39,953 nt of DNA, taken from Aequitasia blattaphilus (GTDB lineage Bacteria > Bacillota > Clostridia > Lachnospirales > Lachnospiraceae). This document shows, piece by piece, positions 729-37,517 of the stretch. The translations under genes and the position numbers were made by a program. Within the stretch, counting starts at the first letter, position 1. Every line of letters starts with the position of its first letter. Where the stretch lies: NCBI RefSeq assembly GCF_024721305.1, contig NZ_JAMXOD010000024.1, forward strand, positions 1-39,953. Reading direction: 5' to 3'. The notes under the pieces were generated by a model that worked only from the letters and a program-made list of their open reading frames with translations, had not been told where the DNA came from and searched no databases.

Positions 729-747
729 TATGATATTCTTATGATAT
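729..747 (+). promoter_or_regulatory. possible promoter of the giant surface protein gene
   Basis: The gap 619-782 is very AT rich. Two copies of TATGATAT lie 11 bp apart (729-736 and 740-747); each holds a -10-like TATGAT. Neither has a good -35 box 17 bp upstream, so the promoter call is weak and would need an activator or an unusual architecture. An inverted repeat AAATCAggTGATTT lies further upstream at about 668-681. Confidence 0.3.
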
Positions 748-782
748 ATGTGTGTAATAAGCGTTTTATGAAGGAGAAGAAT

Positions 783-9700: not shown

Positions 9701-12700
9701 CAATACCTTTTCCAATCTACCGAAGTATAATAAGGAGGGTGTTTCATACGAGTATCGTGGAATCGAAAAAGCAATTGGAGGGACAGCGGTAGACAGTGAG
9801 AGTAAAGCCTATGGATATTCATCCACTCAGACAAGTAATACAGAAATCACGAACAGTCTGATTACACGGGAGAAGACGATTACTGTTACCAAAGAATGGG
9901 ATGACGCATCCAATCAGGATGGCATCCGGCCTACCAGCGTCAAAATGAAATTGGAGCAGCTAAAGCAGGATGGAAACCCTAACAAAACGAATGTGATTAT
10001 ACTGTCTCAGAATAACAATTGGAGCTACACGTGGGAAAACCTTCCCAAATATCGGCCAGATAGATCAGAGTGGGAATATCGAGTGACGGAGGATACATCG
10101 GAATCAGATGGTAAGCCAGATTGGTATGCCGCTTCCTATAAAGTAGATAATGATGTCAGCTTTACAATGGGAAAGACATCTTCAAACATAGATGAAACAG
10201 TTACTTTTAAAAATAGCTATACTCCTCGTAAGATGAATCTGACTCTCACCAAAAAGTGGGAGGATGCAGCCATAGGAAGAACCATTGGTGGGGAAAACCT
10301 GCAGGAAATTCGTCCAGAGTCGATTACCTTTGAATTGTGGAAAACCACCAATAAAGATGGGGTAACCGATTTAACAAAGCTAGAGGAAGAAACCTACAAT
10401 AAAACCTTGACCAAACCATCAAGTGGTGATTGGAGTAACGCAACATGGGAAGATCTGCCTCTAAGAGAAGGTGGAAAAGACGTCTATTACGCTGTTGTTG
10501 AGCGTTCTGTAACGGGTTATAGCACGGTTGCGTACACGTATACAAAGGCAGAGAATAGCGAAGGGAAGATCGTAACAGGTAAAGCAATCACAGGTAGTAT
10601 ACTGGATGGAGCAAGTAGCAAAACACATTTTGCAACGGTTAAAAATACTCTAGATACAACAGACATGACGGTTCATAAAACGTGGGTTGATTACGATCTT
10701 TTTGCCCAGCGTCCGGATAACGTAACCTATCAGTTACAATACAGGTTAACAGGTGAAGAAGAGTGGATTGATACATCCTATACCATAGAGCTGACAGGCG
10801 AGAACACAACGAATACCTGGACCAATACTTTTCAAAATCTGCCGGTTCGAAACAAGAACAATGTGGCATACGAATACCAAGCAATTGAAACAAAGGTGGG
10901 AGATCAAGATGTCACGGAAGTGGATGATTTAAGGGAGGCTCATGGATACACAGTAGGAGACTTTAATTCGGATACAAATACCATTACGAATACCTTGATT
11001 GTCCGGGGAGATATTACCGTCACAAAGAATTGGCAGGATGGCAATAATCAGGATGGGATTCGCCCTACCAGCATCAAAATGACCCTGCAGCAGCTAAAGG
11101 AAGATGGGGAACCCGCTCGAAGTGATGAAATTACATTGCCACACAATGGAACGGAATGGAGCTATACATGGGAAGATTTGCCCAAATATCACGAGGATGG
11201 AGTAACAACCTGGGACTATAAGGTTGTAGAAACCATGACAAGTTCAGATGGTACGGATACGTGGTATACAACAACTTATAAGCTGGACGGGGGAGAGGCA
11301 AAGGCGAAATGTGAGACCATTACAGTTTCTCAGAGTGCCCAAAATGTTGCAGTAACCAATAGCTATACGCCTCGTAAGATGAATCTCTCTGTGGGAAAAA
11401 CATGGAATGATGGGGAGGCAAACAGTATTTTGAATCCAAATGGAATTGATGCTACCCGCCCAAGTGAGAAGCTAACTTATGTTCTATACAAGTCTGAAAA
11501 TGCTGATATGACAGATAGGACAGAGGTCGGCCGTAAAGAGACAACAAAAAGCAGTGGTTGGAAAACCATTCTTTTTGAAGGGTTAAATCTAAGGGAAGAT
11601 GGCACCGAGCTTTACTACTCCGTTGAAGAAGTTTCTATAGAGGGGTACACTGCCAGCTATCAATATTCCCTTGATGATTCGACGATAGCCAGCAAGGGAA
11701 CTGTAAATGGAACAACCGCCCTGAAGGGAAGTGTTTTTGACGGGGCAAATCCCAGAACCCATTCGGCTGCCGTAACCAATACGTTGAACAAAACAGCAAT
11801 TCAGGTGAAGAAAACCTGGAACCACAAGAGTACAATATTTCCACAAAATCCAGAAAGTGTAACCTATCAATTACAGTACAAATTGACGGGAGAAGAAGAG
11901 TGGAAAGATGCTGCCCTATCTCCATTCCAGCTCAGTTTAGAGGATAGCTGGGAGAAGGAAGTGAAGAACCTTCCTGTTGAGAACAATGCTGGCGTTTCAT
12001 ATGCATATCGGGTTAAGGAAATAAAGGTCGGAGATAATTCCTTTGATCAAAACAGCCAAGCCTCTGGGTATGAGGCAACTCAAACAAGTGATGTAGAGAT
12101 TACAAATACATTAAGTATTTATGAGAATGTAACCATAACCAAGATTTGGGATGATGGAGACAATCAGGATGGTATCCGTCCGGCGACGATTACTTTCAAG
12201 CTGACACAGATTGGTGGTGCACAAGGAGTAAAAGAACAGGAAGTCGATGTTCCGACAGACAATGATGGAAGTGTAAGCTATACGTGGACTAATTTACCGA
12301 AGTATAAACCAAACGGCGAGGTATGGACTTACAAAGTAGAGGAGGTTACTCCAGAAGAATATACAGCAACTTACCGTACAGGTGATGGGGAATTTAGTGA
12401 AGAGATTCCAACAATCAGCCAAAGTGGCACAACGGTCACGGTAAAAAATAGCTACAAGCCTAAGACTATGGATATTAAGTTTACAAAAGAGTGGGGAGAT
12501 GAAAATGAATTTGGTAATCGCCCAGAAAGTATCTCTGTAAATCTGTATCAATCAGAAACGCTAGTTGGTACTTATGAAATCAAAGCCTCTGAGAATTGGA
12601 CAAAAACGATTCAGGACTTACCTGTTATGGCAGCAGGAGAAATACTGTATTATTACGCTGAGGAAATCAGTGTGGAAGGCTATGTTAGTTCAACAATTAC

Positions 12701-15700
12701 CTATCAAAACGCAGAGGACAGTGCAGGTAATACGAGGAATAACACAGCTATTGAAGGAAGCATTGACGATCCAGACGGAACGGAGCATTTGATAAACATT
12801 TACAATACCTTGGAGACCACAGAATTCAATGTGACAAAGATATGGAGTGACGAAACGCCCTTCCCACAACGAGGAGATGAAGTGACTTTCCAGCTCTTTT
12901 ATCGAGTGGAACCTGATGGACAGTGGACTAAAAAGAGTGATAGAACCCAGACAGCAAAGGCAGAGAATAGCTGGACAGCAGTCTTTGAAAATCTTCCCGT
13001 TAAAAATGCAGCTGGACAGATTTTTGAGTATAAGGCAGAAGAAATAAAAATAGAGAATCAAGGAATTAAGGATCAGAAAGGGTATGGCTATGAAGTAGGG
13101 GATTTTGCTCTGTATGATTCAGAAGACTACAAGGGAAGTATCACGAATTCCTTGCTTCTGCGAAATTCCATTACGGTAGAGAAGATTTGGGATGATGGAG
13201 ACAATCAAGATGGTATCCGTCCAGCAGAAGTGACCATTCGACTGACTCAAGTTGGCAGCAGTAATGAACCTGTAGAGGTGGAGTTAAAGGAAGAAAATCA
13301 GTGGAAGTATACCTGGGATAACCTGCCGAAATATAAACCTGATGGAGAGACTCTGTGGACTTATAAGGTTGAAGAAGTCGTTGAGGATGACTCAGTGCTT
13401 GATACAGACTACAAAGCGGCCTCCTACAAAGTAGGTGACGGGGAGTATGATGAGGATGCTCCAATCATTACAGGAGAAGATGCACAGTCGGTATTGGTTA
13501 AGAACAGCTACAAGCCAAAAACAATGAATTTGAGCATCACCAAAAGCTGGAGGGATGAAAACAATCGTTTTGAAAGCAGGCCTGATTCGGTTCAGTTCCA
13601 ATTGTATAAAACCACGGATCCAGATGAGGCGTTATCCCATGATGATAGTCATAAAGTAAACAATCCATTGTCCATACAAAAAGACAGCTGGATGAACACG
13701 TGGGAAGATTTACCGATTATGGAAGACCAACAAGTTCTTTATTACTACATTAAAGAGATTGAAGTGCCCGGCTATACTTCATCCAGTTATACGTATCAAG
13801 TGACTGGCAATAATGGTACGCTGAACACAGAAGAGTCTGCTATTGCAGGAAGCTTAGCAGATGAGCGAGGTACAACACATAAAGCAACGATTGAAAATAG
13901 TATCAATACAACAGAGCTGGAGGTAGAGAAAAAGTGGGATGATGAAACCGACTATGTACAACGTCCGGAAAGTGTGGAATTCCAGCTGCAATACCGAAAA
14001 GTAACAGACCCGGAAAGCCAGTGGAAGGATGGGGCAGGAGATACTGCACAGCTGACACTGTCTGAGGAGGATGGAAACTGGAAGAAGAAATTTACGAGTT
14101 TACCAATTAAAGATGGGAATGGAAAAGATTACGAATACCGGGCCGTAGAAACGAAAGTTGGATCACATGAAATTGGAGAGAACGATACTCAGAGCATGGG
14201 ATATGCTCTTGGAGACTATAACGCTGAAACGAAGTCCATTACCAATCAGTTAATTACCCGGGGAAATATTACGGTATCGAAGCAGTGGGATGATGATGGT
14301 AACCGGGATGGAATTCGTCCAGATGAAGTCAAGGTAAAGTTAATTCAAGTTGGTACCGGAATATATGTTGAAAAAACACTAGACGCTGACAACGGTTGGT
14401 CTGCCACCTGGGAAAACCTTCCAAAGTATGACGGGGATGGTTCCCAGTGGATCTACAAGGTGGAAGAGACTGCGGTGAATTCGTACACAACAACGTATCA
14501 GTTGGAACAAGGTGAATTTGGAGAGAGCTGTGAAATTGAAACCTCAGACAATTCACAAAGGGTGACGATAAAAAACAGCTATACACCAAAGACCTTAAAG
14601 CTGGAAGTGACAAAATCCTGGGCGGATAACGATGATGTGTTTGGTACCCGGCCTGAAGAGGTGACCTTTACGATTATGAAAACCACAGAGCCAACGGATT
14701 TGGAAAGTGGTACAGCTGTGGGGACGATAACAATCAAGGAAGATGATTGGAAAGGTACGTCAGAAGAGCTGCCGATTATGGAACGGGTTGAAGAGGTGTC
14801 AAAGCAGGTATACTATTTTATAAAAGAGAAGGAAGTGGCGGGTTATACAAGCAGCTTCGTCCAATATGAAAAGAATAATGAAAGCAGTGGCTCAATTGCA
14901 AATGAGAGTGCAATAGCAGGAGCATTAAGTGATGCAACAGGGTTAATACACAAGGCTTCTCTTACGAATACACTTAAAACCGTTAAAGTCACTGTGACAA
15001 AGCAATGGGATGATGGAAACAATATCTATCAGTCAAGACCAGAAAATATTGCTTTTGCACTTCAACGCCGGAGTCAAGATCGGGAAGAGTTTACAGAGGT
15101 TGCAGACAAAACCGGTAAGAGAATCATTCAAAAAACAGCAAGTGCGGCAACGGATGAGACACAAACAATCCTTTTTGATGGTTTACCAAAATGTGATACC
15201 TCTGGCGGGGAATATACGTATCAAGTCGTGGAGATTGATCTCGCTGATGAGTATGAGTTTAAAGCAGAGACAACACGAACAAATTCCGGAGACTTTGAGG
15301 GAACTGTAATCAATCGATTAAAGCCTATGGAAATTCGTCTGGAAGGTTCAAAGATTTGGAAAGATCAAAATAATAAGTACAAACTGAGACCAGAATCCAT
15401 TCATCTTCGTGTATATCGGGAAAACCCTAAGTTTCCAAATCAATGGGAAGAGGTATCGGCTGATGAACTGAATATTCAGTGGAAAAAAAATGAGGAAAAA
15501 AATCTGTGGACCTACAAAATCACAGGATTGCCCCGTTACGTTGTCTGGAAAGAAATCACTCCGTGGAATTACGCCGTTTCAGAAGATGCTCCAAGGTATT
15601 ATGAACAAATAGGAGACTCCTATGTAAAAGGAAAGGTAGATAACCAATCCGGTAATATCACAGAGTTGAATGTGACAAATCAGTTGATACAGGATGGGAA

Positions 15701-25590: not shown

Positions 25591-28056
25591 TTAATCCAGC
25601 AACTGTCGCTGATATGCTTGAGCAATGGCTTCTCCACGATTTTTAGCGCCTAATTTATTATAGATATTAGAAATATGAGTTTTTGCTGTGGTAGCTTTTA
25701 TATACATGCGGGCAGCAATTTGTGCAATGGTAAAGCCTTTAGCAAGAAGAGCTAAAACCTCAGTTTCTTTTTTGGTAAGAGAAACGGCGGGTTTTGTTTT
25801 TGTGCTTGTATTCTTTTCAAAATATCTTAAATCAGAGAGTGATTGTCCCGCCTTATGAAGATGAATCATAAGGTGTTGAACCCTTCTTTTTGTAAAGAGT
25901 TCCTCGAAGTATTCAAAATGAGATTGAATTAAATTTCTCATATCATCTCCGTAAAGGAAAAGAGAAAACCAGGTCTTGCGTTCTGCTGTTAGTATCTTTA
26001 ATTGCTGGAGGGATAATTTTACCATATGGGGGCGCCCTGCTAAATTATTTGCAAGAGCTGAAATAATGTAATAGTGAAACTTTTCTTTAAAGGTGGTTGG
26101 AGAGATATGAGCCAACAGAAGAATGGATTCACAATACTTTTCTTCTTGTATCAAGCAATAGGCATAAAAAAGTTTCTCAAAATTGCTATTCGGCCTTTGA
26201 AAATCATACTGCTCCCGTATAAAGGAGACACCTTTCAAAGCCAGGTGGAGAAAGCATTTTGTTCGCATTAAAATATCCGGCGGCCCTCTTCGCCCATTAT
26301 AGGCGTGCTCGTTTGTATTGTATTTCTCACAGAGGGTCTGTATATGAGAAAGACCTGGATAATCACCCTCGAAAATATAGATTTGCGTGAGCAGAAAGTA
26401 GCAGTATAAGTGAATCAGTGTATCACTATGGCTGGCCTCTAGTAAGAGACCAAGAAGCACCTTTTTGGCATCGTCTATTTTCGCCTCATTTAAAAGCAGA
26501 CTGCCCTTTAAAAGCAGAAGCAGGTTTTGTGTTGTGCCTTTGCAAAGAGCATCCCAACGGGAGGTGAGCCGGGTAAGACGCAGAGAATAATCAGCAGAAA
26601 ACAAAGTTGAGTTCTCGATTACAAGAGCATATATTTTACCGAGATAAAAGGGGTTTTGATAAGCAATACGGCTTCCATTTGGCAGGAATTTCATTGCCTT
26701 TTCAAGGTAGAAAAGACTTTGGCTGGAATTTTCTTTTAAAAGTACAATGGACAAAAGAAGGTAAGATTCGCCCGGCAGCTCTCGGGAATCTGGAGAAGAG
26801 TCAGACTCCAGACAAGGAACCAGATTTAATAAGGCAGACTGTGTTCCAGAGGTGCTTGTATAAAACATTGAAAGAAAGGTATGAGAAAATGCGGCCTCGA
26901 TTTTCGTAAGAGAAAGATCATGTGGGCAAGCATCGATTAAATCGTAAACTTCTGTATAGGGTAGTGGAGAGCCATGAGTAAGAAGTAAAGGATAGATGCA
27001 AAGGAGTGCATTTTCATAATCCTTTGTCTGAGTGTAAACAGCAATTGCATCCTTGAAGTATTGGTTTGATTGATACCAATGTCCACAGTTTTGTAAAAAG
27101 GAGTGAAGGATGTTTTTGTCATAAATATTTTTTTGGCTTTGCAGATATTTTTGATAAAGAGGGTGGAAGCATATTTGTTCACCAAAGTCTTTCTTATATA
27201 TAAAATCCAGATTCAAAATTTCATTACAGTATTGGGAATGAATGTAAGGATCTGCAAGTTTAAGAAGCTCTAAATTAAAAAAAGAAAGGCAGGACAAAAA
27301 AGCAAGAAGCCTTTGCAAGTGGGGAGAGTAATTCTTAAAATGATACTTATAAAAAGCTTTCTCCATTGTAAAAAACACTTCATTGTCGCGATTTCTAATG
27401 TATTTCAGATAAATATAAAGAGGCCACCCCCGGGTTTCTGCCAAAATTTTTTGACATTCCTCTTCTGAAAGGGTTCGCTTGTAAAGGGAAAAAAGTTCAA
27501 GCACTTCAGAATGAGAAAAGGACAGGTCAGAGTCTGTTATGATACGGTAAGGAATTAAAGAGGATACGTTCAATGGAAGGGGTCTTCTGCTGATGACTAC
27601 AAAATGAAAATAATGCTCCGCTGAGCTGTTAATGTGTAAAAAGTGATTTAGAAAGTTTAAAATGTCAGGGTTATGAAGGCTCTCATATTGATCGAAAATA
27701 TAGTCTATTTTTCGCAAAGGAAAAAAGAACTCTTTTACCGTCTTTAAAAAACTTTTGATTTCAGCAGGGGATGCAGGAAAATCAGTTTGGCAAATGCGGG
27801 AATAAAAAGTGGGATACAATTCACGAAATCCGTGAATGTATTGACTCCAAAAAAGTTCTACATTATTATCGGTTTCATTTAAATCCAACCATATATAAGG
27901 GCGGTTGCCTTCTGAGTAGAAAGAGAATGCAGCCACTGTCTTGCCATATCCAAAGGAAGCGCACATCAGTGTAATATTCTCAGAGTGGCTTTCCTCTAAT
28001 AAATTATGAACACGAGAAGGGATGATAAATAAAGGATTTCCATTATCAAAAGACAT
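25591..28056 (-). CDS. large MalT-like LuxR-family regulator with NTPase domain
   Basis: An 821-residue STAND-type regulator. A P-loop ASFGYGKT is near residues 33-40 and WLDLNETDNN follows as in MalT-type NTPases. The middle (about 330-740) is helical, with many short repeats typical of TPR-like sensor regions. The C-terminus (about 757-821) is a LuxR helix-turn-helix: LTKKETEVLALLAKGFTIAQ then TAKTHISNIYNKLGAKNR. Family knowledge: such proteins are cytoplasmic, bind ATP and an inducer and activate promoters as oligomers. No obvious target stands beside it; the two-component operon starts divergently 170 nt away. The AGGGAG ribosome site before ATG supports the start. Ligand and target unknown. 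Confidence 0.9.
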   Translation of the reverse strand: MSFDNGNPLFIIPSRVHNLLEESHSENITLMCASFGYGKTVAAFSFYSEGNRPYIWLDLNETDNNVELFWSQYIHGFRELYPTFYSRICQTDFPASPAEIKSFLKTVKEFFFPLRKIDYIFDQYESLHNPDILNFLNHFLHINSSAEHYFHFVVISRRPLPLNVSSLIPYRIITDSDLSFSHSEVLELFSLYKRTLSEEECQKILAETRGWPLYIYLKYIRNRDNEVFFTMEKAFYKYHFKNYSPHLQRLLAFLSCLSFFNLELLKLADPYIHSQYCNEILNLDFIYKKDFGEQICFHPLYQKYLQSQKNIYDKNILHSFLQNCGHWYQSNQYFKDAIAVYTQTKDYENALLCIYPLLLTHGSPLPYTEVYDLIDACPHDLSLTKIEAAFSHTFLSMFYTSTSGTQSALLNLVPCLESDSSPDSRELPGESYLLLSIVLLKENSSQSLFYLEKAMKFLPNGSRIAYQNPFYLGKIYALVIENSTLFSADYSLRLTRLTSRWDALCKGTTQNLLLLLKGSLLLNEAKIDDAKKVLLGLLLEASHSDTLIHLYCYFLLTQIYIFEGDYPGLSHIQTLCEKYNTNEHAYNGRRGPPDILMRTKCFLHLALKGVSFIREQYDFQRPNSNFEKLFYAYCLIQEEKYCESILLLAHISPTTFKEKFHYYIISALANNLAGRPHMVKLSLQQLKILTAERKTWFSLFLYGDDMRNLIQSHFEYFEELFTKRRVQHLMIHLHKAGQSLSDLRYFEKNTSTKTKPAVSLTKKETEVLALLAKGFTIAQIAARMYIKATTAKTHISNIYNKLGAKNRGEAIAQAYQRQLLD

Positions 28057-28126: not shown

Positions 28127-28155
28127 GGGTTTTTATTTTTCTATGCGGATAAATC

Positions 28156-28184
28156 TTGACATTAAAGACAGTTGTTTCTACTAT
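28156..28184 (+). promoter_or_regulatory. promoter of the two-component/pseudo-ATPase operon
   Basis: A perfect TTGACA (28156-28161) with a 17-bp spacer to TACTAT (28179-28184). The predicted start near 28191 lies downstream of the in-frame ATG at 28143, which argues for the later start of the response regulator. Confidence 0.75.
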
Positions 28185-28229
28185 GAAAGGAGAACATTAG
28201 CAGACCGTATCAAAGAAGAGAGGAAAATG

Positions 28230-29837
28230 ATGTTAAAAGTAGTTATTGCCGATGATGAAGAAAGAGTGTGTAGACTGATTGAGTTTCTGATTGACTGGAA
28301 GTCGATGGGGATGGAGGTAGTGTCGATTGTCCATAATGGGACAGATGCCTTATCAGCTGTCGAAAAGTATAGGCCCAACATAATCATTACAGATATTAAG
28401 ATGCCGGGGGTAAGTGGTTTAGAACTAATTGAGGAATCAAAGAAATTAAATCCGAAAATGGAATACATTGTGATTAGCGGATATAAGTCATTTGAATATG
28501 CGAAAAAGGCGATTCAATTTGGTGTTTCAAATTATTTACTTAAGCCAATTGACCAAGAGGAATTAAAGCGAACCCTGGAAGAAATTAGGGAAACTGTTTA
28601 TGAGAGAAGAGAGCAATTATCAAAGGGAAAGAAACTAGAAGTTTATGAGAAGGAGTATTTGATAAGCAAACGTAAAGAACTGATGGAGAGCATCATATTT
28701 GGTAATAAGGAACCGGAGAGTAACTATAGCATTGAAGAGCTTAACAAAAAGTTTTGTTATAACTTTCGGCCTGGTCTTTTTCAAACAGTAGTGATTAAAA
28801 TCGATGGACTGCACGAACAAACCCAAGAAAATAAACAGTATGTAGAAAATACGGTAGAACGAGAGGTTCGCAAGGAGTTAAGTGATTGTTTCGAATTAGG
28901 TTCTATGGTTTATGAAGAAATATTTTGTTTTACCCTCAACTATCCAAAAGAAGACTACGATATTGAGGAGAGAATGAAGGAGATTTTGAGAAATTTACTG
29001 ATTCAAAAAGATATTCTCAAAGATTTTCAAGTTACAATTGGTTTGGGGGAGGCAAGGGAAAAACCGATTGCTTTGTTTGAGGGAATTAAGTCGGCAAAAA
29101 GAGCAATTGACCAACGTCTGATTTTAGGAACCAATCGCGTTGTTCAAGGAGAATCGAAACATGCAAAAGACTTCATCAACACGGAATTGGTAACCACCTT
29201 TAACCATGATTTCTCCGAGGCAATAGAGGTTCAGAATTTAGAACTCATGATACAGACAATCAATCAGCTGGAAGAGGGAATCTTAGCAGATAAATCTGTG
29301 ACGGGATATATTATTTATCAGATATGTAAAGAGGTTGTTAATGTCTATCTATTTGCCCTAAAGAAATTTGATTTTCCAACTCAAATTATTGATACGTTGT
29401 TTCATCAATTTCATGTAGAGATTCATAATTATGGTTCAGCGCGAGAAACCTTTGAGTATTTAAAAGAAGTCATTCGCAATACTTTTGAAGTGCTAAAGAA
29501 GGAAAAAGATTCTCAAGATAAAAAACCGATTAAACAGGCCAAGAAGTTTATTATAGAAAATCTGGATCAACCAATCTCTTTGGAAATTGTCAGTGATAAG
29601 GTGGGTTTTAACACTGCTTATTTTAGCACCTTATTTAAGAGGGAAACTGGGGATACGTTTTCTGAATATTTAACAAATTGCCGAATGGAAAAGGCGAAGG
29701 AATTTCTTCGGGACACAAGTATCCCAATTGCAGTTATCTGTCAGAAAGTAGGATACAATGATGTAAAACACTTTACAAAGAAGTTTACGAAATACGCAAG
29801 CTTGAAACCAAACGAATACCGTAAGCTTTATTCATAG
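28230..29837 (+). CDS. AraC-type response regulator (YesN family)
   Basis: A 535-residue cytoplasmic response regulator. The receiver domain (1-about 120) has acidic residues Asp8 and Asp9, phosphoacceptor Asp55 (IIITDIKMPG), Ser83 and Lys105 (LLKPID). A middle region of about 300 residues is charged and helical. The C-terminus (about 435-535) holds two helix-turn-helix motifs of the AraC type: SLEIVSDKVGFNTAYFSTLF and AVICQKVGYNDVKHFTKKFT. ATG 28230 is chosen since GAGAGG lies 6 nt upstream and the strong promoter starts transcription after the earlier ATG. It is 8 nt from the kinase gene. YesN-type regulators usually control adjacent carbohydrate ABC transporters, which fits the mgl-like genes downstream. 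Confidence 0.95.
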   Translation: MLKVVIADDEERVCRLIEFLIDWKSMGMEVVSIVHNGTDALSAVEKYRPNIIITDIKMPGVSGLELIEESKKLNPKMEYIVISGYKSFEYAKKAIQFGVSNYLLKPIDQEELKRTLEEIRETVYERREQLSKGKKLEVYEKEYLISKRKELMESIIFGNKEPESNYSIEELNKKFCYNFRPGLFQTVVIKIDGLHEQTQENKQYVENTVEREVRKELSDCFELGSMVYEEIFCFTLNYPKEDYDIEERMKEILRNLLIQKDILKDFQVTIGLGEAREKPIALFEGIKSAKRAIDQRLILGTNRVVQGESKHAKDFINTELVTTFNHDFSEAIEVQNLELMIQTINQLEEGILADKSVTGYIIYQICKEVVNVYLFALKKFDFPTQIIDTLFHQFHVEIHNYGSARETFEYLKEVIRNTFEVLKKEKDSQDKKPIKQAKKFIIENLDQPISLEIVSDKVGFNTAYFSTLFKRETGDTFSEYLTNCRMEKAKEFLRDTSIPIAVICQKVGYNDVKHFTKKFTKYASLKPNEYRKLYS

Positions 29838-29845
29838 GAGCAGCC

Positions 29846-30853
29846 ATGAAAAAGAAATATTTATTTCAGTATCTAAATATTGGTCTGATTATCCAAACAA
29901 TAGTTACGATTGTTTTATTCAGTATCTTGTTTTTTGTTGAAAATACGGTTGTGATTAAGGTGATTGCAATTAGTGGAATTTTGGAGTGGATTATTTTTTT
30001 GTTCATTCTTATGCGGCAGGTATGGAGGCCGCTCACAAGTCTGAATAAAGCATTTCAGGCCTTTGCAGAAGGATACATTGGATATGATGTGTTTGAGATG
30101 AAAAGTGAATTAAGCGAAGAGCATGGAAATATGATGGCTTTGATGAAAGAGTTATTGGATCGAAAAGAACTTCTACAGCTATATAAAAAACAATCCGAAT
30201 ATTTGGCTTTGCAAAATCAGATTAATCCTCATTTTTTATACAATACCTTAGAGGGAATCAGAAGCGAAGCCTTAATTGGAGGCCTTCCAGTTGTAGGAGA
30301 GATGGCAGAAGTATTGGCAAAGTTTTTTCGATACACAATTTCAAATATTAGTTCATTCGTGTCCGTTGAAGACGAAATTAGCAATGTTTTACATTACTAT
30401 CAAATTCAAAAATTTCGTTTTGGAGAACGGATTAATCTTAACATTAGTTTTGATGAGAATGAGGAGAAAGACATTAAAGAGTGCCATATGCCTAAGCTTA
30501 TTTTACAGCCCATTGTAGAAAATGCAATTAAACATGGGATTGAGCCAATGATGGAAGATGGTATTATTGGAATTCGGTTTCAGCACATTTCCAATCGATT
30601 GATTATCGTTATTTCAGATAACGGAGTTGGAATGGAGCAAAAGGAATTAGATGCACTGAATGATAAGCTTGGAAAAATCCAGTTAAATGATGCAGATGCT
30701 TTGAATCAATTACAAGGCGTTGCGATGTTTAACGTCAGTAATCGAATCAAGCTGCTTTATGGGGAAGAATATGGAATTCATTTTTACAGCGAACCAGGAG
30801 TTGGAACGGATGTGGAGGTTTCTTTACCCTTTAACAAAAAAGAAGATAAATAG
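29846..30853 (+). CDS. sensor histidine kinase (YesM/LytS family) with minimal extracellular part
   Basis: A 335-residue membrane kinase. Two membrane segments (about 11-31 and 36-57) are joined by only about five residues, so no extracellular sensor domain exists. A short linker leads to the His_kinase domain with phosphoacceptor His129 in QINPHFLYNT, the N box QPIVENAIKHG with Asn226 and the G box DNGVGM at 258-263. It is half the size of typical YesM proteins, which carry a large extracellular sensor. It lies between the response regulator and the pseudo-ATPase, 8 nt from each. The input signal must come from another protein or the membrane. Confidence 0.93.
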   Translation: MKKKYLFQYLNIGLIIQTIVTIVLFSILFFVENTVVIKVIAISGILEWIIFLFILMRQVWRPLTSLNKAFQAFAEGYIGYDVFEMKSELSEEHGNMMALMKELLDRKELLQLYKKQSEYLALQNQINPHFLYNTLEGIRSEALIGGLPVVGEMAEVLAKFFRYTISNISSFVSVEDEISNVLHYYQIQKFRFGERINLNISFDENEEKDIKECHMPKLILQPIVENAIKHGIEPMMEDGIIGIRFQHISNRLIIVISDNGVGMEQKELDALNDKLGKIQLNDADALNQLQGVAMFNVSNRIKLLYGEEYGIHFYSEPGVGTDVEVSLPFNKKEDK

Positions 30854-30861
30854 GTAAGCGG

Positions 30862-32238
30862 ATGAAGCAGGAACTATTAAGAATTGAACATGTAAGTTTG
30901 AATAAATCAAAAATAGATTATCTGAGAAACCTTAGTATGTGGATTGAAAAAGCCGAGATCTTAGGTTTAATCAGTCTGAATTACCATGGCTTAGAGGAGC
31001 TGATTGACTTGATTATAAATAACGCGCCGATTCAGCAGGGAAAGGTTTACTATGACGGAAATAGTGTAAACAGCTATTTAGGAAAAGTTAAAAAAGAGAA
31101 TAAAGTATGTATCATTGACCGCCAAAGCCGATTAGCCCCAGACTTAACTGTTGCAGATAATATTTTTGTTCTGAGAAAAGGTTTTAAAAAGTACTTCATT
31201 AATAGTAGTATTTTAGAGAAGGAGGTTGCACGAACGCTTACAGAGTCACAGATAGAAATTGAGCCGAACATCCTGGCAGGTCTTTTGACAGAGGGACAAC
31301 GCTATCAAGTTGAGTTAATCAAAGCAGTGTCATTTGGTGCGAAATTAGTGATTGTACAAAACGTTGGCGAGCTCCTAAGCTTCAATGATCTATCGAAATT
31401 TCATGAGTTAATGAAATGCTTTGCAAAACAAGGAGTTTCATTTTTATATGTTAGTAATGACTATCGAGAGGTCTTTGATATTAGTGACCGAGCGTTATTA
31501 TACAAAAATGGACAGATTAAGAAAGTTTTATACAAAGATGAAATGCATGAGAGAACGGTTTTGCCATACCTACAACCAATCAAGGACTTAAGGGCACGTG
31601 AGAATATGGAGAGAAGGAGTGTCTTACAGGTTAAAGACCTGTATTATGATGCTGCTAATAAAGTTTCTTTTCTCATTCATCAAGGAGAATGTATTACCAT
31701 TTTGGATAAGGAAAAGGTACTGATTCATCATTCAATAATGGAGCTCATGACACTGGGGATTCAAAAAGGAAATATCTTTTTTAATGGGGATAAATTTGTG
31801 GAAGAGGTTTTGCTGATTCCGGAAAATCCGATAAGCAGTACGCTTTTTTTGGATCAAAGTTATCTTTATAATCTTTTGTTTTTAATCGATAAGAAAATTG
31901 ATAGGAGCGTTATTCCGACGAAGGTAATTGAGAGTGTAAAAAAAGAGTGGGGAAAGAAGATTGGAAGAGTAATGGATTGTTCCAGTATTCGAGACTTAAG
32001 CATTCGGGAGAAATATCAATTGATTTACTACAAAGCCATTTTGTACCGTCCCAAATTAGTTATTGTTATGCAGCCCTTTGCAGTAGCGGATTTTAATTTG
32101 AGAGAAGAAATTATTAAGTTGGTAGCAGAATTGAAGCAAAGTAATATAGCAGTATTATTGCTGTCATCTTATGCAATTGATATTAAATCCGTATCGGATC
32201 AATACATTGTTTTGGGTGAAGAAAGCGAAATCCAATAA
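30862..32238 (+). CDS. catalytically dead duplicated ABC ATPase homologue (MglA/RbsA-like)
   Basis: A 458-residue protein in the fold of a sugar-transporter ATPase with two nucleotide-binding halves, aligned by eye with the intact protein encoded next. In half 1 the Walker A segment GENGAGKST becomes SLNYHGLEE (38-46), the signature region reads LLTEGQRYQ (141-149), and the Walker B DEPT is QNVG (166-169); the switch His is Asn (YVSND). In half 2 the P-loop region is LDKEKVLIHH, the signature LSGGNQQK is LSIREKYQ and Walker B DEP is MQP (403-405). All ATP-binding and hydrolysis residues are lost in both halves, while the surrounding strands stay recognisable. It lies in the operon of the two-component genes. 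Role inferred: a scaffold that binds the transporter or the kinase and couples transport to signalling. It could also be a decaying gene, but the frame is intact. Confidence 0.85.
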   Translation: MKQELLRIEHVSLNKSKIDYLRNLSMWIEKAEILGLISLNYHGLEELIDLIINNAPIQQGKVYYDGNSVNSYLGKVKKENKVCIIDRQSRLAPDLTVADNIFVLRKGFKKYFINSSILEKEVARTLTESQIEIEPNILAGLLTEGQRYQVELIKAVSFGAKLVIVQNVGELLSFNDLSKFHELMKCFAKQGVSFLYVSNDYREVFDISDRALLYKNGQIKKVLYKDEMHERTVLPYLQPIKDLRARENMERRSVLQVKDLYYDAANKVSFLIHQGECITILDKEKVLIHHSIMELMTLGIQKGNIFFNGDKFVEEVLLIPENPISSTLFLDQSYLYNLLFLIDKKIDRSVIPTKVIESVKKEWGKKIGRVMDCSSIRDLSIREKYQLIYYKAILYRPKLVIVMQPFAVADFNLREEIIKLVAELKQSNIAVLLLSSYAIDIKSVSDQYIVLGEESEIQ

Positions 32239-32240
32239 AT

Positions 32241-32297
32241 ACCCCCCTTTATCAAATGAAGCACCCCTATTCTGGGAAAGAGTAAGGGTGCTATACT
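32241..32297 (+). promoter_or_regulatory. candidate activator sites, hairpin and -10 box before the ABC transporter operon
   Basis: The 90-nt gap between the dead ATPase and the transporter genes holds two C-rich repeats, ACCCCCCTTTAT (32241) and ACCCCTATTCT (32263), about two helical turns apart. The second lies in an inverted repeat, AGCACCC...GGGTGCT, that can form a 14-bp stem with one mismatch and a GGGAA loop (about 32260-32292). TATACT (32292-32297) is a good -10 box, but the -35 position (TTCTGG) is poor. This pattern suits an activator-dependent promoter. The hairpin lacks a T run, so it is not an ordinary terminator. Confidence 0.45.
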
Positions 32298-32328
32298 TGT
32301 GTAAGAATAAAGAACAAGAGGGATGATT

Positions 32329-33861
32329 ATGGAAGAATATATTGTTCAAATGAAAAACATAAGTAAGGAGTTCCCAGGAGTAAAGGCGCTCGATGATGTA
32401 CAGCTCAATCTGAAAAAAGGAGAAGTGCTGGCCTTTCTTGGTGAAAACGGGGCAGGTAAATCAACACTGATGAAGATTTTAAGTGGGATATATCAAAAGG
32501 ACACAGGAGAGATTATCGTTGATGGTCAGGTGATTGAGCATATGAACCCGGCAAAAGCCCGGGAATTGGGAATTGCCATTATTCATCAGGAATTGAATAT
32601 GTGCTCTCATTTAACGGTTGCAGAGAATATTTTTCTTGGACGTGAAAAAACGAAATCCGGGGTTCTATCAGAGAAAGAAATGAGGAAAGAGGCTAAGAAG
32701 GTATTAAACCGGTTAAAGATAGATATTGATCCGGATACTCTTGTAGGTGACTTGGCTGTATCCAAACAGCAGATGGTAGAAATTGGAAAAGCACTCTCTG
32801 TGAATGCGAGAATCTTGATTATGGATGAGCCCACATCGGCGCTTACATCTGCCGAAATCGATGAGCTGTTCCGAATCATTAATCAATTAAAGTCTGAAGG
32901 ATGTGGAATTATTTATATCTCTCACAGGTTAGAAGAGTTAAAGCATATTACAGACAGGGTTATCGTTTTAAGAGACGGAAAGTATATTGATACAAAAGAG
33001 TTTGAAGGACTTAGCATGGATGAAGTTGTTTCCTTAATGGTTGGCCGGGAGATTAAGAACAAGTTTCCGAGAGTTGAGTGTCAAAAAGGCGATAAGATTT
33101 TGGAAATTAAAAACTTAAATGCAGGTAAAATGGTCCGCAATATTAATTTAGAGCTTTATAAGGGAGAAATTGTTGGAATTGCAGGACTTATGGGAGCTGG
33201 GCGAACGGAAACGACTCGGGCAATTTTCGGTGTTGATCCAAAGGACAGTGGTGAAATAATACTGGAAGGACAGCCTGTTACCATTCATAAGCCAGAAGAT
33301 GCTATTCGGGCAGGAATTGTTTTGGCTCCTGAGGATCGGAAGAAGGATGGGTTGTGCACAAAACTTAGTGTTGGTGACAATATTGCCCTGCCAAATCTTG
33401 ATATTATTTGTAATAAGGCAGGAGTTATTAATAGTAAGAAGCAGGAGCAGATGGTTGAAAAGGCGGTAAAGGATCTTCAAATTAAGTTGGCAAACGACAA
33501 TGTTGATGCAGGAAGCCTTTCTGGTGGAAATCAGCAAAAAATTGTGGTTGGAAAATGGTTGGCAAGAGATTCTAAAGTGGTTATTTTTGATGAACCGACA
33601 AGAGGGATTGATGTTGCGGCAAAAGTAGAAATCTATAACTTGATGAATGCGCTTAAAAAGAATGGTATTGGCGTTCTGTTTGTTTCCTCAGAAATGCCAG
33701 AGGTAATGGGAATCAGTGATCGAATCATTATTATGTGTGACGGGCGAATTACTGGAGAACTCAATACAAGTGAAGCAACACAGGAACAGATTCTAAAATA
33801 TGCAACAAAGTTCGAAGACAAGAGCGGTGAAAATAAAGGAGAGAGTGAAAATGGAAACTAA
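32329..33861 (+). CDS. sugar-type ABC transporter ATP-binding protein (MglA/RbsA family)
   Basis: A 510-residue cytoplasmic ATPase with two ABC halves. Half 1 has a canonical Walker A, GENGAGKST (38-46), and Walker B ILIMDEPTSALT; its signature is the reduced LAVSKQQ. Half 2 has the family's degenerate P-loop GLMGAGRTE, a full signature LSGGNQQK and Walker B VVIFDEPTRGID. This pairing of one full and one degenerate P-loop is normal in MglA/RbsA/XylG. ATG 32329 is preferred over ATG 32323 because GAGGG then lies 6 nt upstream. It overlaps the permease gene by 11 nt. It powers uptake of a sugar or a related small polar ligand; the substrate is not determinable. Confidence 0.95.
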   Translation: MEEYIVQMKNISKEFPGVKALDDVQLNLKKGEVLAFLGENGAGKSTLMKILSGIYQKDTGEIIVDGQVIEHMNPAKARELGIAIIHQELNMCSHLTVAENIFLGREKTKSGVLSEKEMRKEAKKVLNRLKIDIDPDTLVGDLAVSKQQMVEIGKALSVNARILIMDEPTSALTSAEIDELFRIINQLKSEGCGIIYISHRLEELKHITDRVIVLRDGKYIDTKEFEGLSMDEVVSLMVGREIKNKFPRVECQKGDKILEIKNLNAGKMVRNINLELYKGEIVGIAGLMGAGRTETTRAIFGVDPKDSGEIILEGQPVTIHKPEDAIRAGIVLAPEDRKKDGLCTKLSVGDNIALPNLDIICNKAGVINSKKQEQMVEKAVKDLQIKLANDNVDAGSLSGGNQQKIVVGKWLARDSKVVIFDEPTRGIDVAAKVEIYNLMNALKKNGIGVLFVSSEMPEVMGISDRIIIMCDGRITGELNTSEATQEQILKYATKFEDKSGENKGESENGN

Positions 33862-34849
33862 CAAAAAGGGAATCAGAAAAATACTTGCTATTAGAGGGAT
33901 GGGTCAAGTATTAACGGTAACCGTTGGGTTAATTATATTGTGTATTGTTTTTGGAGTTTTAAATCCCACCTTTTTTTCCAATAAAAATCTGGGCAATCTT
34001 TTAAGACAAATTGCACCGATACTTCTAATTGGGATTGGACAATCCTACGTGTTGATAACAGGGAATATAGATTTATCAATTGGCTCAGTTTTAGGAATGA
34101 GCTGTATGATTTCTGCAACATTAATGACAAAAGGAATCAGCCCTATCGCCGCAATACTCATTACATTTGTGGCATGTATGGCTGTGGGATTTTTAAATGG
34201 ACATTTAGTATCTACCTGTTCTTTACCTCCATTTATTGCAACGCTTGGTACAATGACGATTGGTAGAGGTATTGCTCAGATTGTAAATGGAAATTACAAC
34301 ACTGATTCAATTGGGGCAGCAGGGAAGAAGTTTCGTGAGTTTTTCTATTATGGCAAAACCTTTGGCATATACAATACAATTTTAATTGCAATCATAGTAT
34401 GGATTGTATTTAACTTCATTCTTAGCCGGACACGAACTGGGAGACATATTTATGCGATTGGATCAAATGTTGATGCTGCAAAGTTATCTGGCGTATCGGT
34501 AGTGGGAACAACGGTTAAAGTTTATTTAGTAAGTGCATTTTGCTCATTCTTAGTCGGAATTATTACTTGTGCAACGGCAGGTATGGGAACCATGGATTCA
34601 GGAACATCATATGAGATGTATGCAGTTGCGGCATCTGTTATTGGCGGAGTATCTACATTAGGAGGACAGGGGATTCTGTTAGGTACTGTGGTTGGTGCAG
34701 CAATTTGGGGTGTTTTGCAAAATGGATTGCAGTTTGCAGGAGCTCCCGTTGCCATTCGAAATATAGTGATTGGTGTGATTGTAGTTGTCTCAGTACTATT
34801 GGACGTAATTGTAAGAACAGGAAGCTTTAAACGCAAGAAAAAAGCATAG
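33851..34849 (+). CDS. sugar-type ABC transporter permease (MglC/RbsC family)
   Basis: A 332-residue inner-membrane permease, with about eight to ten hydrophobic segments from residue 18 on. The conserved stretch ITGNIDLSIGSVLG and the later VIGGVSTLGGQGILLGTVVG are typical of the BPD_transp_2 family and mark the contacts with the ATPase. I use ATG 33851 (METNKKG), because AGGAGA lies about 8 nt upstream and the longer N-terminus in the frame is poor. The 11-nt overlap with the ATPase gene suggests coupled translation. The functional transporter would contain two copies. Confidence 0.95.
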   Translation: METNKKGIRKILAIRGMGQVLTVTVGLIILCIVFGVLNPTFFSNKNLGNLLRQIAPILLIGIGQSYVLITGNIDLSIGSVLGMSCMISATLMTKGISPIAAILITFVACMAVGFLNGHLVSTCSLPPFIATLGTMTIGRGIAQIVNGNYNTDSIGAAGKKFREFFYYGKTFGIYNTILIAIIVWIVFNFILSRTRTGRHIYAIGSNVDAAKLSGVSVVGTTVKVYLVSAFCSFLVGIITCATAGMGTMDSGTSYEMYAVAASVIGGVSTLGGQGILLGTVVGAAIWGVLQNGLQFAGAPVAIRNIVIGVIVVVSVLLDVIVRTGSFKRKKKA

Positions 34850-34899: not shown

Positions 34900-35865
34900 A
34901 TGAAGAGGAAATTTCTAGGGTTATTATTATGTGCAGCAATGGTTGGAACCTTGGCAATGGGGTGCAGCAACAAAGCAGACTCGGGAGAAAGTGCAAGTGG
35001 AGATAAAGAGGATGCAGCCAGTGGAGGTGGAACGAAAAAAGTTGTGTTAATTACCATGGATCAAATGGATCAGCATTGGAAAAATGTGGATAAGGGATGC
35101 CAGGAAGCGGTGAAGGCGTTAGGAGATATTGACTATTCTTGGTCTGCACCAGATGTGAAAGACGATGCAAAGCAAATAGAGTGTATTAATAATGCAGTAG
35201 CAGGTGGTGCGGAAGCAATTTTGTTGGCCGCAAATGGTCCAGATGCAGTAACAGCAGCTCTTGAAGAAGCTGCAGCGGAAGGGGTTAAAATTATCTATGT
35301 TGACTCAGCAGCAAATTTTGACGGGGAAGCAACATTTTCTACAGATAATGAAGCGGCTGGTGTAACAGCAGGAGAAACAATGTTGGAAGAGTTTGAAGCA
35401 CAAGGTGTAACAAGTGGTAAAATCGGAATTGTGAATGTGAATTCTGCAACAGCTTCTTGCGTAGCTCGTGAGGAAGGATTTCGAAAAGCATTTGAAGGAA
35501 CAGACTTTGAATTATTAGAAACACAGTACAGTGAAGGAGATGCAGCGAAGTCACAAGACATTGCAAGTGGTTATATCACACAAGGTGTTGTTGGTATGTT
35601 CGGTGCAAATGAAGGTTCTACAGTAGGTATCGGGAATGCAATACAGGAAGAGAGTGGAAGCAAAATTGTAGGTGTTGGATTTGATAAGTCCGATACAATC
35701 GGTGAGTTGGTTGAAAATGGATACCTACTTGCAACAATGGCACAAAATCCTGACCAAATGGGTAAATTAGGAATCGAAGCAGCCGATAAACTATTAAAAG
35801 GTGAAAGCCTTGATCAAACAGACGTAGACACCGGTGTATCTGTTCTTAAGAAGGGTGATTTTTAA
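34900..35865 (+). CDS. sugar-type ABC transporter substrate-binding lipoprotein (RbsB/MglB-like)
   Basis: A 321-residue lipoprotein of the periplasmic-binding-protein type 4 fold. The signal peptide has lipobox LAMGC with Cys22, where a lipid anchors it outside the membrane; a low-complexity linker follows (to about 45). The fold shows DQHWKNVDKGC, DSAANFDGEATFSTDN, AREEGFRKAF, GANEGST and VGFDKSD, which align with ligand-contact loops of RbsB. A strong GAGGAGG site stands before the ATG. It is the last gene of the operon (ATPase, permease, binding protein), while in many sugar operons it comes first. The ligand is unknown; ribose, galactose, AI-2-like or inositol-like molecules are all possible. 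Confidence 0.94.
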   Translation: MKRKFLGLLLCAAMVGTLAMGCSNKADSGESASGDKEDAASGGGTKKVVLITMDQMDQHWKNVDKGCQEAVKALGDIDYSWSAPDVKDDAKQIECINNAVAGGAEAILLAANGPDAVTAALEEAAAEGVKIIYVDSAANFDGEATFSTDNEAAGVTAGETMLEEFEAQGVTSGKIGIVNVNSATASCVAREEGFRKAFEGTDFELLETQYSEGDAAKSQDIASGYITQGVVGMFGANEGSTVGIGNAIQEESGSKIVGVGFDKSDTIGELVENGYLLATMAQNPDQMGKLGIEAADKLLKGESLDQTDVDTGVSVLKKGDF

Positions 35866-36186: not shown

Positions 36187-36603
36187 ATGATTGTTATTGC
36201 ATGTGTAGATGATGCTCTCGGAATGATGTTTAATAAAAGAAGACAAAGCAAAGATAAAGTTCTTCAAAAAGAAATAATGGAAGCAACGGCAGGGAAAAAG
36301 CTCTGGATGAATCAATACTCGCTGAATCAATTTCAGGAGGAATTTCCAGAGAGCCATATTCTTTGTGATGAAGATTTTTTAAATAAGGCAGCAGAGGGAG
36401 ACTATTGTTTTGTTGAAAACATTAGTCTGAAATCTTATGAAGAGAAGATTGAAAAAATCATTTTGTATAAATGGAACAGAAAATATCCTGCAGATTTTTT
36501 CTTTGATATTTCCATAAATGAAAATGGTTGGAAGATCATTGAGTCGGAAGAATTTCCGGGATATTCCCATGAAAAAATCACAAAGGAAGTGTATGGTAAA
36601 TGA
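36187..36603 (+). CDS. conserved protein of unknown function, coupled to a nuclease
   Basis: A 138-residue soluble protein without signal peptide or membrane segment. It opens with VIACVDDALGMMFNKRRQSKD, then LWMNQYSLNQF, and near the end carries EKIILYKWNRKYPAD and EEFPGYSHEKITKEVYG. The strong conservation look of these blocks recalls a small family I have seen in Lachnospiraceae (sometimes labelled ribonuclease Z in databases, without support), but I cannot assign a function. AAAGGAAG is the ribosome site. Its TGA overlaps the ATG of the next gene by 4 nt (ATGA), so the two proteins are made together. Possible roles are inhibitor or partner of the nuclease; both are inference. Confidence 0.85.
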   Translation: MIVIACVDDALGMMFNKRRQSKDKVLQKEIMEATAGKKLWMNQYSLNQFQEEFPESHILCDEDFLNKAAEGDYCFVENISLKSYEEKIEKIILYKWNRKYPADFFFDISINENGWKIIESEEFPGYSHEKITKEVYGK

Positions 36604-37517
36604 GAAGAATTTGTAAAATTAAGTCACGATTCCTTCTGATTGTACTTTGCTTTTTTCTAAGCGGATGCAGTATGGTTCCAGAGAAGTCACAGGAAGAATC
36701 GACCCAATATGTCAGTAATATAGAAAGTGTTCCGGAGTTTTCTGGAGAACCTTATGTGGTTGTGAATGAAAATGAACCCTTTTTTGAAGAGGAAGATTAT
36801 ACCGAAGAGGCATTTGAAGAATATAGCGATTTGGATTCATTAGGTCGGTGTGGCGTTGCTTATGCAAATATCGGACAAGAGATTATGCCCACTGAAAAAC
36901 GAGGAGATATTGGCAGTGTAAAGCCTACGGGCTGGCATTCGATTCAGTATGATAATGTAGAGGGAAAATCCCTCTATAATAGATGTCATTTGGTTGGGTT
37001 TCAACTTTCGGGAGAAAATGCTAACGAACAGAATCTTATTACGGGAACCCGCTATTTTAATGTAGAAGGAATGCTTCCTTTTGAAAACATGGTAGCAGAT
37101 TATGTAAAGGAAACGGAAGACCATGTTCTCTATCGGGTGACGCCTGTTTTTGAAGGGGATAATCTTGTTGCTTCTGGTGTGTTGATGGAAGCAAAATCGG
37201 TAGAGGACGAAGGGGATGGAGTTACCTTTTGTGTTTATGTATATAATAATCAGCCAGATATTGAAATTGATTATGCTACCGGAGAGAGTGGGTTAGAGTC
37301 AGAAAGTGAAGTGACAAAGAGTGATGTATCGAAAGAGGCTCAAGATAGTGAATATGAGGCAGGAACGTATATCTTAAATAAGAATTCCAAAAAATTTCAT
37401 CGTATGGATTGTTCCGGTGCGTCAAGTATAAAGGAAAAAAATAAAGAAGAATTTACTGGAAACAGAGAGGAGCTCGTTAATCAGGGCTATGCTCCTTGTC
37501 AGCAGTGTAATCCGTAG
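36600..37517 (+). CDS. secreted lipoprotein DNA/RNA non-specific endonuclease
   Basis: A 305-residue exported lipoprotein. The signal peptide has a basic start and lipobox LSGC with Cys23. The nuclease domain (about 75-220) shows GWHSIQYDNVEG, then NRCHLVGFQLSGENANEQNL, in the position of the catalytic DRGH motif of NucA/EndA nucleases (Asp replaced by Asn, Gly by Cys, the general-base His kept), and NLITGTRYFN. The C-terminus (about 257-305) is a small cysteine domain, YILNKNSKKFHRMDCS...PCQQCNP, like a metal-binding knuckle of Ada type. Acidic, disordered linkers lie between the parts. The enzyme probably degrades extracellular DNA at the cell surface. A good terminator follows. Confidence 0.9.
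   Translation: MRRICKIKSRFLLIVLCFFLSGCSMVPEKSQEESTQYVSNIESVPEFSGEPYVVVNENEPFFEEEDYTEEAFEEYSDLDSLGRCGVAYANIGQEIMPTEKRGDIGSVKPTGWHSIQYDNVEGKSLYNRCHLVGFQLSGENANEQNLITGTRYFNVEGMLPFENMVADYVKETEDHVLYRVTPVFEGDNLVASGVLMEAKSVEDEGDGVTFCVYVYNNQPDIEIDYATGESGLESESEVTKSDVSKEAQDSEYEAGTYILNKNSKKFHRMDCSGASSIKEKNKEEFTGNREELVNQGYAPCQQCNP

Follow-up and report, generated by a model that had tools for sequence, protein, structure and literature searches.

A catalytically degenerate tandem ABC ATPase adjoins sensorless histidine kinases in Clostridia and may couple them to a permease

The closest described systems connect transporters, or parts of them, with histidine kinases in different ways. According to the consulted parts of the sources, the BceAB-BceS flux-sensing module contains an active peptide transporter, and its use of ATP is part of the signalling (PMC10314905, PMC6978683). 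In the PstSCAB-PhoU-PhoR system, PhoU links to the active ATPase PstB, and the consulted part of the source does not describe PhoU as a relative of ATPases (PMC6978683). Likewise as presented in consulted parts, a binding protein docks on the extracellular domain of the kinase in CuaDSR and XylFII-LytS (PMC10384115), and the S-component-like 5TMR kinases carry a fused membrane fold (PMC11109136). In the open-licence PMC literature, we found no description of a degenerate ABC ATPase as a partner of a histidine kinase.

The window, which is the whole stretch of 39,953 nucleotides of Aequitasia blattaphilus DNA that was analysed, corresponds to contig C17 of a 3.2-Mb genome that is split into 60 contigs. 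Its forward strand carries, in this order, a response regulator (RR), a histidine kinase (HK), PSI, mglA, mglC, and a substrate-binding protein (SBP), with PSI being the name that we use for a family of degenerate tandem ATPases that includes the protein of this window:

28143 to 29837, + strand: YesN-type response regulator with receiver and AraC-type HTH (Pfam Response_reg, HTH_18); start likelier at a Met-Met at about 28227, as read from the translation
29846 to 30853, + strand: YesM/LytS-type histidine kinase, 335 aa, two helices, without extracytoplasmic domain (Pfam His_kinase, HATPase_c; hydropathy)
30862 to 32238, + strand: PSI, catalytically degenerate tandem ABC protein (Pfam, NCBIfam, residue check, conservation, neighbourhood scan)
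32244 to 32268, + strand: direct repeat CCCCT-N4-CAAA-N7-CCCCT, candidate regulator site (pattern matches)
32292 to 32297, + strand: -10-like TATACT of the transporter operon (reading of the upstream region)
32323 to 33861, + strand: active tandem ATPase of the MglA type, 9/9 catalytic residues (Pfam, NCBIfam, residue check)
33800 to 34849, + strand: permease of the MglC type (Pfam BPD_transp_2); start likelier at an internal Met near 33851
34900 to 35865, + strand: substrate-binding protein (Pfam Peripla_BP_4)

RR and HK are separated by 8 nt, as are the kinase stop at 30853 and the PSI start, and 84 nt lie between the end of PSI and mglA at 32323. Besides PSI, the transporter genes are an importer-type MglA/MglC/SBP set and not an exporter-like BceAB. 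Elsewhere in the window, a Cna_B-rich frame of 5452 aa (741-17099, +; 8 and 18 matched stretches in two scanned pieces) probably encodes a very large surface protein, a MalT-like LuxR regulator of 821 aa (25591-28056, -) is divergent from the RR gene, and a putative secreted DNA/RNA non-specific endonuclease is encoded at 36600-37517 (+).

The PSI frame encodes 458 aa from an ATG start and has no internal stops. Pfam ABC_tran matched half 1 only, with 29.5 bits at a cut-off of 25; the other Pfam match was a sub-threshold one to DUF2529, and there was none to PhoU. The ten top NCBIfam models were all MglA/RbsA/XylG-type tandem ATPases with 60-101 bits versus cut-offs of 586-850, and PSI missed every curated MglA/RbsA-type family cut-off (maximally 101 bits versus at least 586). 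Together with the alignment, these matches revealed two ABC halves and full-length homology to MglA/RbsA-type transport ATPases, and the two-half architecture proposed by the sequence-only reading is thus kept at profile level. We then scored nine catalytic positions, namely Walker A Lys, Q-loop Gln, Walker B Asp, Glu, and switch His in half 1, and Walker A Arg, signature Ser-Gly, Walker B Asp, and Glu in half 2. The window PSI retains none of the nine, whereas 63 of 66 active MglA-type proteins, chosen by profile score among the fetched loci, retain all nine and the other three retain eight. The sequence-only reading had described an intact frame, degenerate in both halves and 8 nt past the kinase, and this was confirmed; its statement that the switch His is lost in both halves is loose for half 2, where intact MglA proteins also lack this His. 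As the window PSI is only 22% identical to the adjoining MglA and falls on a separate tree branch, we rejected the idea of a recent mglA duplicate.

A search of 299 genomes of the family with the window PSI (E <= 1e-40) yielded 19 proteins in 18 genomes, its own included. The protein follows a kinase in 19/19 of these loci (the L039 kinase is split over two frames, and the L053 contig stretch starts at the kinase), and an active tandem ATPase lies within the fetched stretch in 18/19. A single-protein scan of genome contigs gave no match. Another PSI of this genome (L077) is divergent, with 21% identity to the window PSI; at its locus, SBP-MglA-MglC point away, and next come RR, a kinase of 260 aa that lacks membrane helices, and PSI. 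When used as a query (E <= 1e-30) in the 299 family genomes with five candidates scored per genome, the L077 PSI found only itself among the matches listed.

A GTDB scan with eight aligned PSIs detected 78 loci. Full-length matches were present in 72; 5 of these are active ATPases, with 7 or 9 of the 9 residues, and 67 are degenerate proteins. The partial generic ABC hits L295-L300 and the matches that keep 7 or 9 of 9 residues (L285, L286, L287, L288, and L293) were left out before counting neighbours. A kinase is encoded immediately upstream in 61/67 degenerate loci of this PSI-only scan, of which 57 came from the neighbourhood listing and L241, L247, L267, and L289 from a closer look, with L241 and L247 checked by tblastn. 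The exceptions are L249 at a contig edge, L242, L245, and L246 with RR-HK 2.5-2.8 kb downstream, and L233 and L290, for which no kinase was found within the fetched stretch. About a fifth of the loci in this count had already turned up before. The L233 PSI (8001-9455) is 49% identical to the query in a stretch of 17 kb, and L290 (8001-9488) is a tandem ABC with 1/9 catalytic residues and with permease and ATPase genes nearby. The expectation that homologues accompany a two-component pair was thus borne out, but homologues do not always lie between the kinase and an MglABC set: in five loci, the gene order differs or no kinase was found. In 66 degenerate proteins, 0, 1, 2, 3, and 4 residues are kept in 18, 16, 25, 5, and 2 cases, respectively. 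Named holders of PSI include Mobilisporobacter, Anaerocolumna, Caproiciproducens, Ruminiclostridium cellobioparum, Robinsoniella, Kineothrix, Blautia schinkii, and one Spirochaetales MAG. It should be noted that the gene caller loses genes beneath longer opposite-strand frames (L124, L167, L211, L241, and L247 among others); L124 was entered by hand, the L167 kinase stays uncalled, and the L211 ATPase was counted as not found.

The association was also approached from the kinase. With the helix-less L077 kinase as query in the 299 family genomes, mostly short kinases with frames of about 260-410 aa outranked YesM kinases of the usual length (about 480-670 aa) among the matches listed, and 57 short-kinase loci (40 + 17) were picked by frame length from these matches and fetched. 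A tandem ABC lies immediately downstream of the short kinase in 37/40 and 17/17 of them, the one of L185, among the 17, being largely intact. In L116, L131, and L134, the degenerate ABC protein is encoded upstream of RR-HK instead, in two cases as a single half; these single-half proteins next to RR-HK (L116, 1608-2372; L131, 4471-5226) are a reduced PSI form. Altogether, 74 kinase-adjacent ABCs were compared (19 from the first search, L077, 37, and 17): no catalytic residue is kept in 13, one in 29, two in 18, three in 10, four in 2, and five in 1, and seven are kept in L185, with L133 keeping 5/9.

As a control, we analyzed 20 loci with long kinases that ranked lower among the same matches, and PSI was found within three genes of the kinase in 0/20 (in L167, the gene caller missed the kinase frame, and the L157 locus runs into the contig end). 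Several of them have the order RR-HK(long)-SBP-MglA-MglC. The residues between the outer helices number 144-279 in the 19 called long kinases but at most about 28 in the short ones, and this contrast in loop length and PSI presence indicates that PSI occurs where the sensor region of the kinase is missing. The control strengthens the idea that a dead ATPase stands in place of the missing sensor and, together with the kinase linkage in the PSI scan, led us to reject PSI as a chance neighbour. All short kinases were retrieved with a single query, by similarity, and most of them cluster, so that they represent one association rather than 57 independent ones; a quick kinase-core tree (88 short, 17 long) needs three changes and would fit either one or several origins of the short kinases. 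The window kinase also served as query across the class (291 genomes). Of 16 loci outside the family that were chosen from this search, PSI follows the kinase in 13 and is convergent in L217. In L219 (3800-5470) and L221 (3450-4943), partly degenerate tandem ABCs precede RR-HK and may be an independent form or an earlier one.

By a simple hydropathy rule, most short kinases have two helices, a few have three, and some have one. The helices of the window kinase are predicted at residues 6-22 and 30-46, in agreement with the earlier view that it has no sensor domain of its own. Seven kinases with an adjoining PSI (L077, L109, L110, L111, L116, L117, and L147) have no membrane helix at all, and their N-termini agree; the L134 kinase also scores zero, with an unsure start. 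A kinase that is not in the membrane has no access of its own to outside signals, so that its input either comes via PSI or arises within the cell.

At some loci, PSI has a permease of its own instead of an MglABC set, a further departure from the arrangement that the sequence-only reading asked about. In L110, L111, L117, and L126, a permease is encoded right after PSI or one binding-protein gene later, and L116 and L134 have the order PSI-SBP-permease-RR-HK. None of these six own-permease stretches (10-16 kb) contains an active MglA-type ATPase; other, single-half ABC genes are present in those of L110, L111, and L126, and an ATPase encoded elsewhere could serve the six permeases. In L135 and L136, PSI is followed by an extra divergent permease (9367-10293 and 9280-10188, respectively) and then by a full transporter operon.

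We consider it rather probable that PSI takes the place of the sensor domain as a transporter-derived, ATP-independent coupling or receptor subunit that links a permease to a sensorless kinase. In ABC importers, the segments around and behind the Q-loops line the groove for the coupling helices of the permease. With segment limits set by eye, conservation in the window subfamily (20 sequences) reaches the 99th and 91st percentile in the Q-loop and presumed docking segments but only the 30th and 13th in the P-loops, with the half-1 switch segment at the 95th and the half-2 Walker B at the 82nd; the value of the switch segment shows that conservation is not confined to the docking groove. These data bear on the main alternative, namely that PSI senses a cytosolic ligand on behalf of the kinase, with an altered pocket that binds an internal metabolite and without any permease. 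The seven kinases without membrane helix and a nucleotide pocket that is free to change agree with such a role, but conservation is among the highest in the docking segments and among the lowest in the P-loops, and several loci encode permeases in the same operon, which makes this alternative unlikely.

Still less likely, in our opinion, PSI could replace MglA on the permease and thereby throttle transport, with the kinase sensing via its own helices and PSI being merely co-regulated. The two-helix, tiny-loop kinases do resemble intramembrane-sensing kinases as characterized in the consulted part of the source (PMC10314905), and the conserved docking surface would fit, but PSI also accompanies helix-less kinases, and the six own-permease stretches contain no MglA-type ATPase to compete with. 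It is very improbable that the role of PSI is confined to tethering the kinase to the membrane or stabilizing it, with no signal carried: helix-less kinases would need a route to a membrane complex if they act there, but the two-helix kinases, which are membrane-bound already, also retain PSI.

Twelve pairs were used for dN/dS analyses, of which six gave a finite PSI dS, five were saturated, and L052/L053 remained without a value. PSI dN/dS was 0.114, 0.128, and 0.115 in three species pairs of one genus, which are not independent, and 0.073, 0.177, and 0.099 in further pairs, the last with a dS of 1.4 near saturation; kinase values in the same pairs were 0.02-0.10. PSI is therefore under purifying selection, with values of 0.07-0.18 being far below one, as anticipated from the intact frame. 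A decaying pseudogene, for which one might cite the lost catalytic motifs and the broken frame in L267 (one of 67 scanned loci), is rejected on this dN/dS and also contradicted by the locus scan, with conserved blocks and gene order over many genera.

In a tree of the 74 kinase-adjacent ABCs and the 66 active ATPases, one branch splits the two sets (99%); L185 is nearest to the active set, and many PSI branches are very long. Distance rank correlations in 61 loci were 0.59 for RR-HK, 0.59 for RR-PSI, 0.45 for HK-PSI, 0.38 for PSI-ATPase, and 0.29 for PSI-permease, and none of the five was reached in 500 permutations. The 29 same-genome pairs were no closer than average. The co-divergence of PSI with kinase, ATPase, and permease may partly reflect the shared descent of neighbouring genes.

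The candidate site before mglA follows a pattern read from the upstream regions of 20 loci. It has one match in its own 3.2-Mb genome (reversed control: 0; expected matches in the window: 0.02). In 29 loci, source loci included, we found 10 matches versus 0.35 expected, of which 8 precede the active ATPase gene, one precedes a different gene in L056, and one lies in L211 between PSI and the transporter genes, where the gene caller missed the ATPase frame. Of the 51 loci new in the GTDB scan, 16 have the site versus 0.80 expected, in 11 cases directly before the active ATPase gene. The strict form is absent in 19/29 loci and 35/51 new loci, and the site is thus not universal. A -35-like hexamer paired with the TATACT was looked for in this upstream region and not found. 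An inverted repeat AGCACCC...GGGTGCT (32260-32292) overlaps the second half-site; L044 and L047 have longer versions, and only in some loci does the repeat extend as far as the -10.

If PSI is indeed a coupling subunit, a tandem MglA-type ATPase would have joined a YesMN-type operon and given up the binding and hydrolysis of ATP while keeping the surface that docks on permease coupling helices. We infer that PSI would sit on a permease, in some loci that of its own operon and in the window probably the neighbouring MglC, and that it would relay the state of this permease to the kinase that has no sensor domain. The model of the sequence-only reading, in which the dead ATPase would report transporter occupancy to the kinase, is thereby partly supported. 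The kinase would phosphorylate the YesN-type regulator, which may act on the direct repeat before mglA and switch on the transporter. This proposal is based on the kinase adjacency seen from both sides, the 0/20 control, the helix-less kinases beside PSI, the own permeases without an MglA-type ATPase, the purifying selection, the conservation of docking segments over P-loops, the distance correlations with the same-locus kinase, ATPase, and permease, and the recurring site before transporter genes. Against it speak L233 and L290 without a detected kinase, the three loci with a distant kinase, the switch-segment conservation, and the many loci without the strict site; moreover, PSI could be what allows soluble kinases to respond to a cytosolic ligand. 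More tentatively, the pseudo-ATPase and permease, with or without binding protein, might form a non-transporting complex that senses an outside nutrient and drives the kinase, as a class spread through Clostridia that replaces the usual YesM-type sensor domain and in whose extreme form the kinase would be entirely cytoplasmic.

If true, this would be a new type of bacterial nutrient sensing, in which a dead transport motor is a signalling subunit that replaces a sensor domain, and a cell may use such a "dead" transporter piece to report an outside nutrient to its genes. It would also give a function to a large gene set that best matches sugar-transporter ATPases yet cannot encode motors. Kinases with 0, 1, and 2 helices, PSIs with and without their own permease, and the ABCs of L185 (7/9) and L133 (5/9) form a natural series for the change from transporter to receptor, and the candidate DNA site points to target genes.

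With MglA/RbsA tandem transport ATPases, PSI shares the length, the two ABC halves, and an end-to-end alignment, but its catalytic residues are gone, and it is fixed to a kinase rather than being a transporter motor. For the signalling systems, likenesses are drawn from the consulted parts of the sources. As with BceAB-BceS, a kinase without extracellular sensor would receive its input from adjoining ABC transporter genes (PMC10314905, PMC6978683), and the window indeed has a kinase without extracytoplasmic sensor beside ABC genes. However, there is no active exporter-like BceAB in the window as signal source; what is encoded beside the kinase is a catalytically dead tandem sugar-type ATPase, and the kinases are of the His_kinase/YesM type, some without membrane helix. 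As in PstSCAB-PhoU-PhoR, a separate adaptor would stand between the transporter and a kinase without canonical periplasmic sensor (PMC6978683), but here the adaptor would itself be a degenerate ATPase, and PSI has no PhoU homology in Pfam. CuaDSR and XylFII-LytS have in common with this locus the YesN/AraC-type regulator, the sugar-binding protein, and, as proposed for this locus, control of a sugar transporter in Clostridia (PMC10384115), whereas the PSI-side kinase has no extracellular domain. The S-component-like 5TMR kinases also re-use a transporter part as a receptor part (PMC11109136), but in the present case it would be a cytoplasmic ATPase that is re-used, as a separate protein. What is new compared to BceAB-BceS, PstB-PhoU-PhoR, CuaDSR, and the S-component kinases is a dead ABC ATPase as a fixed third component.
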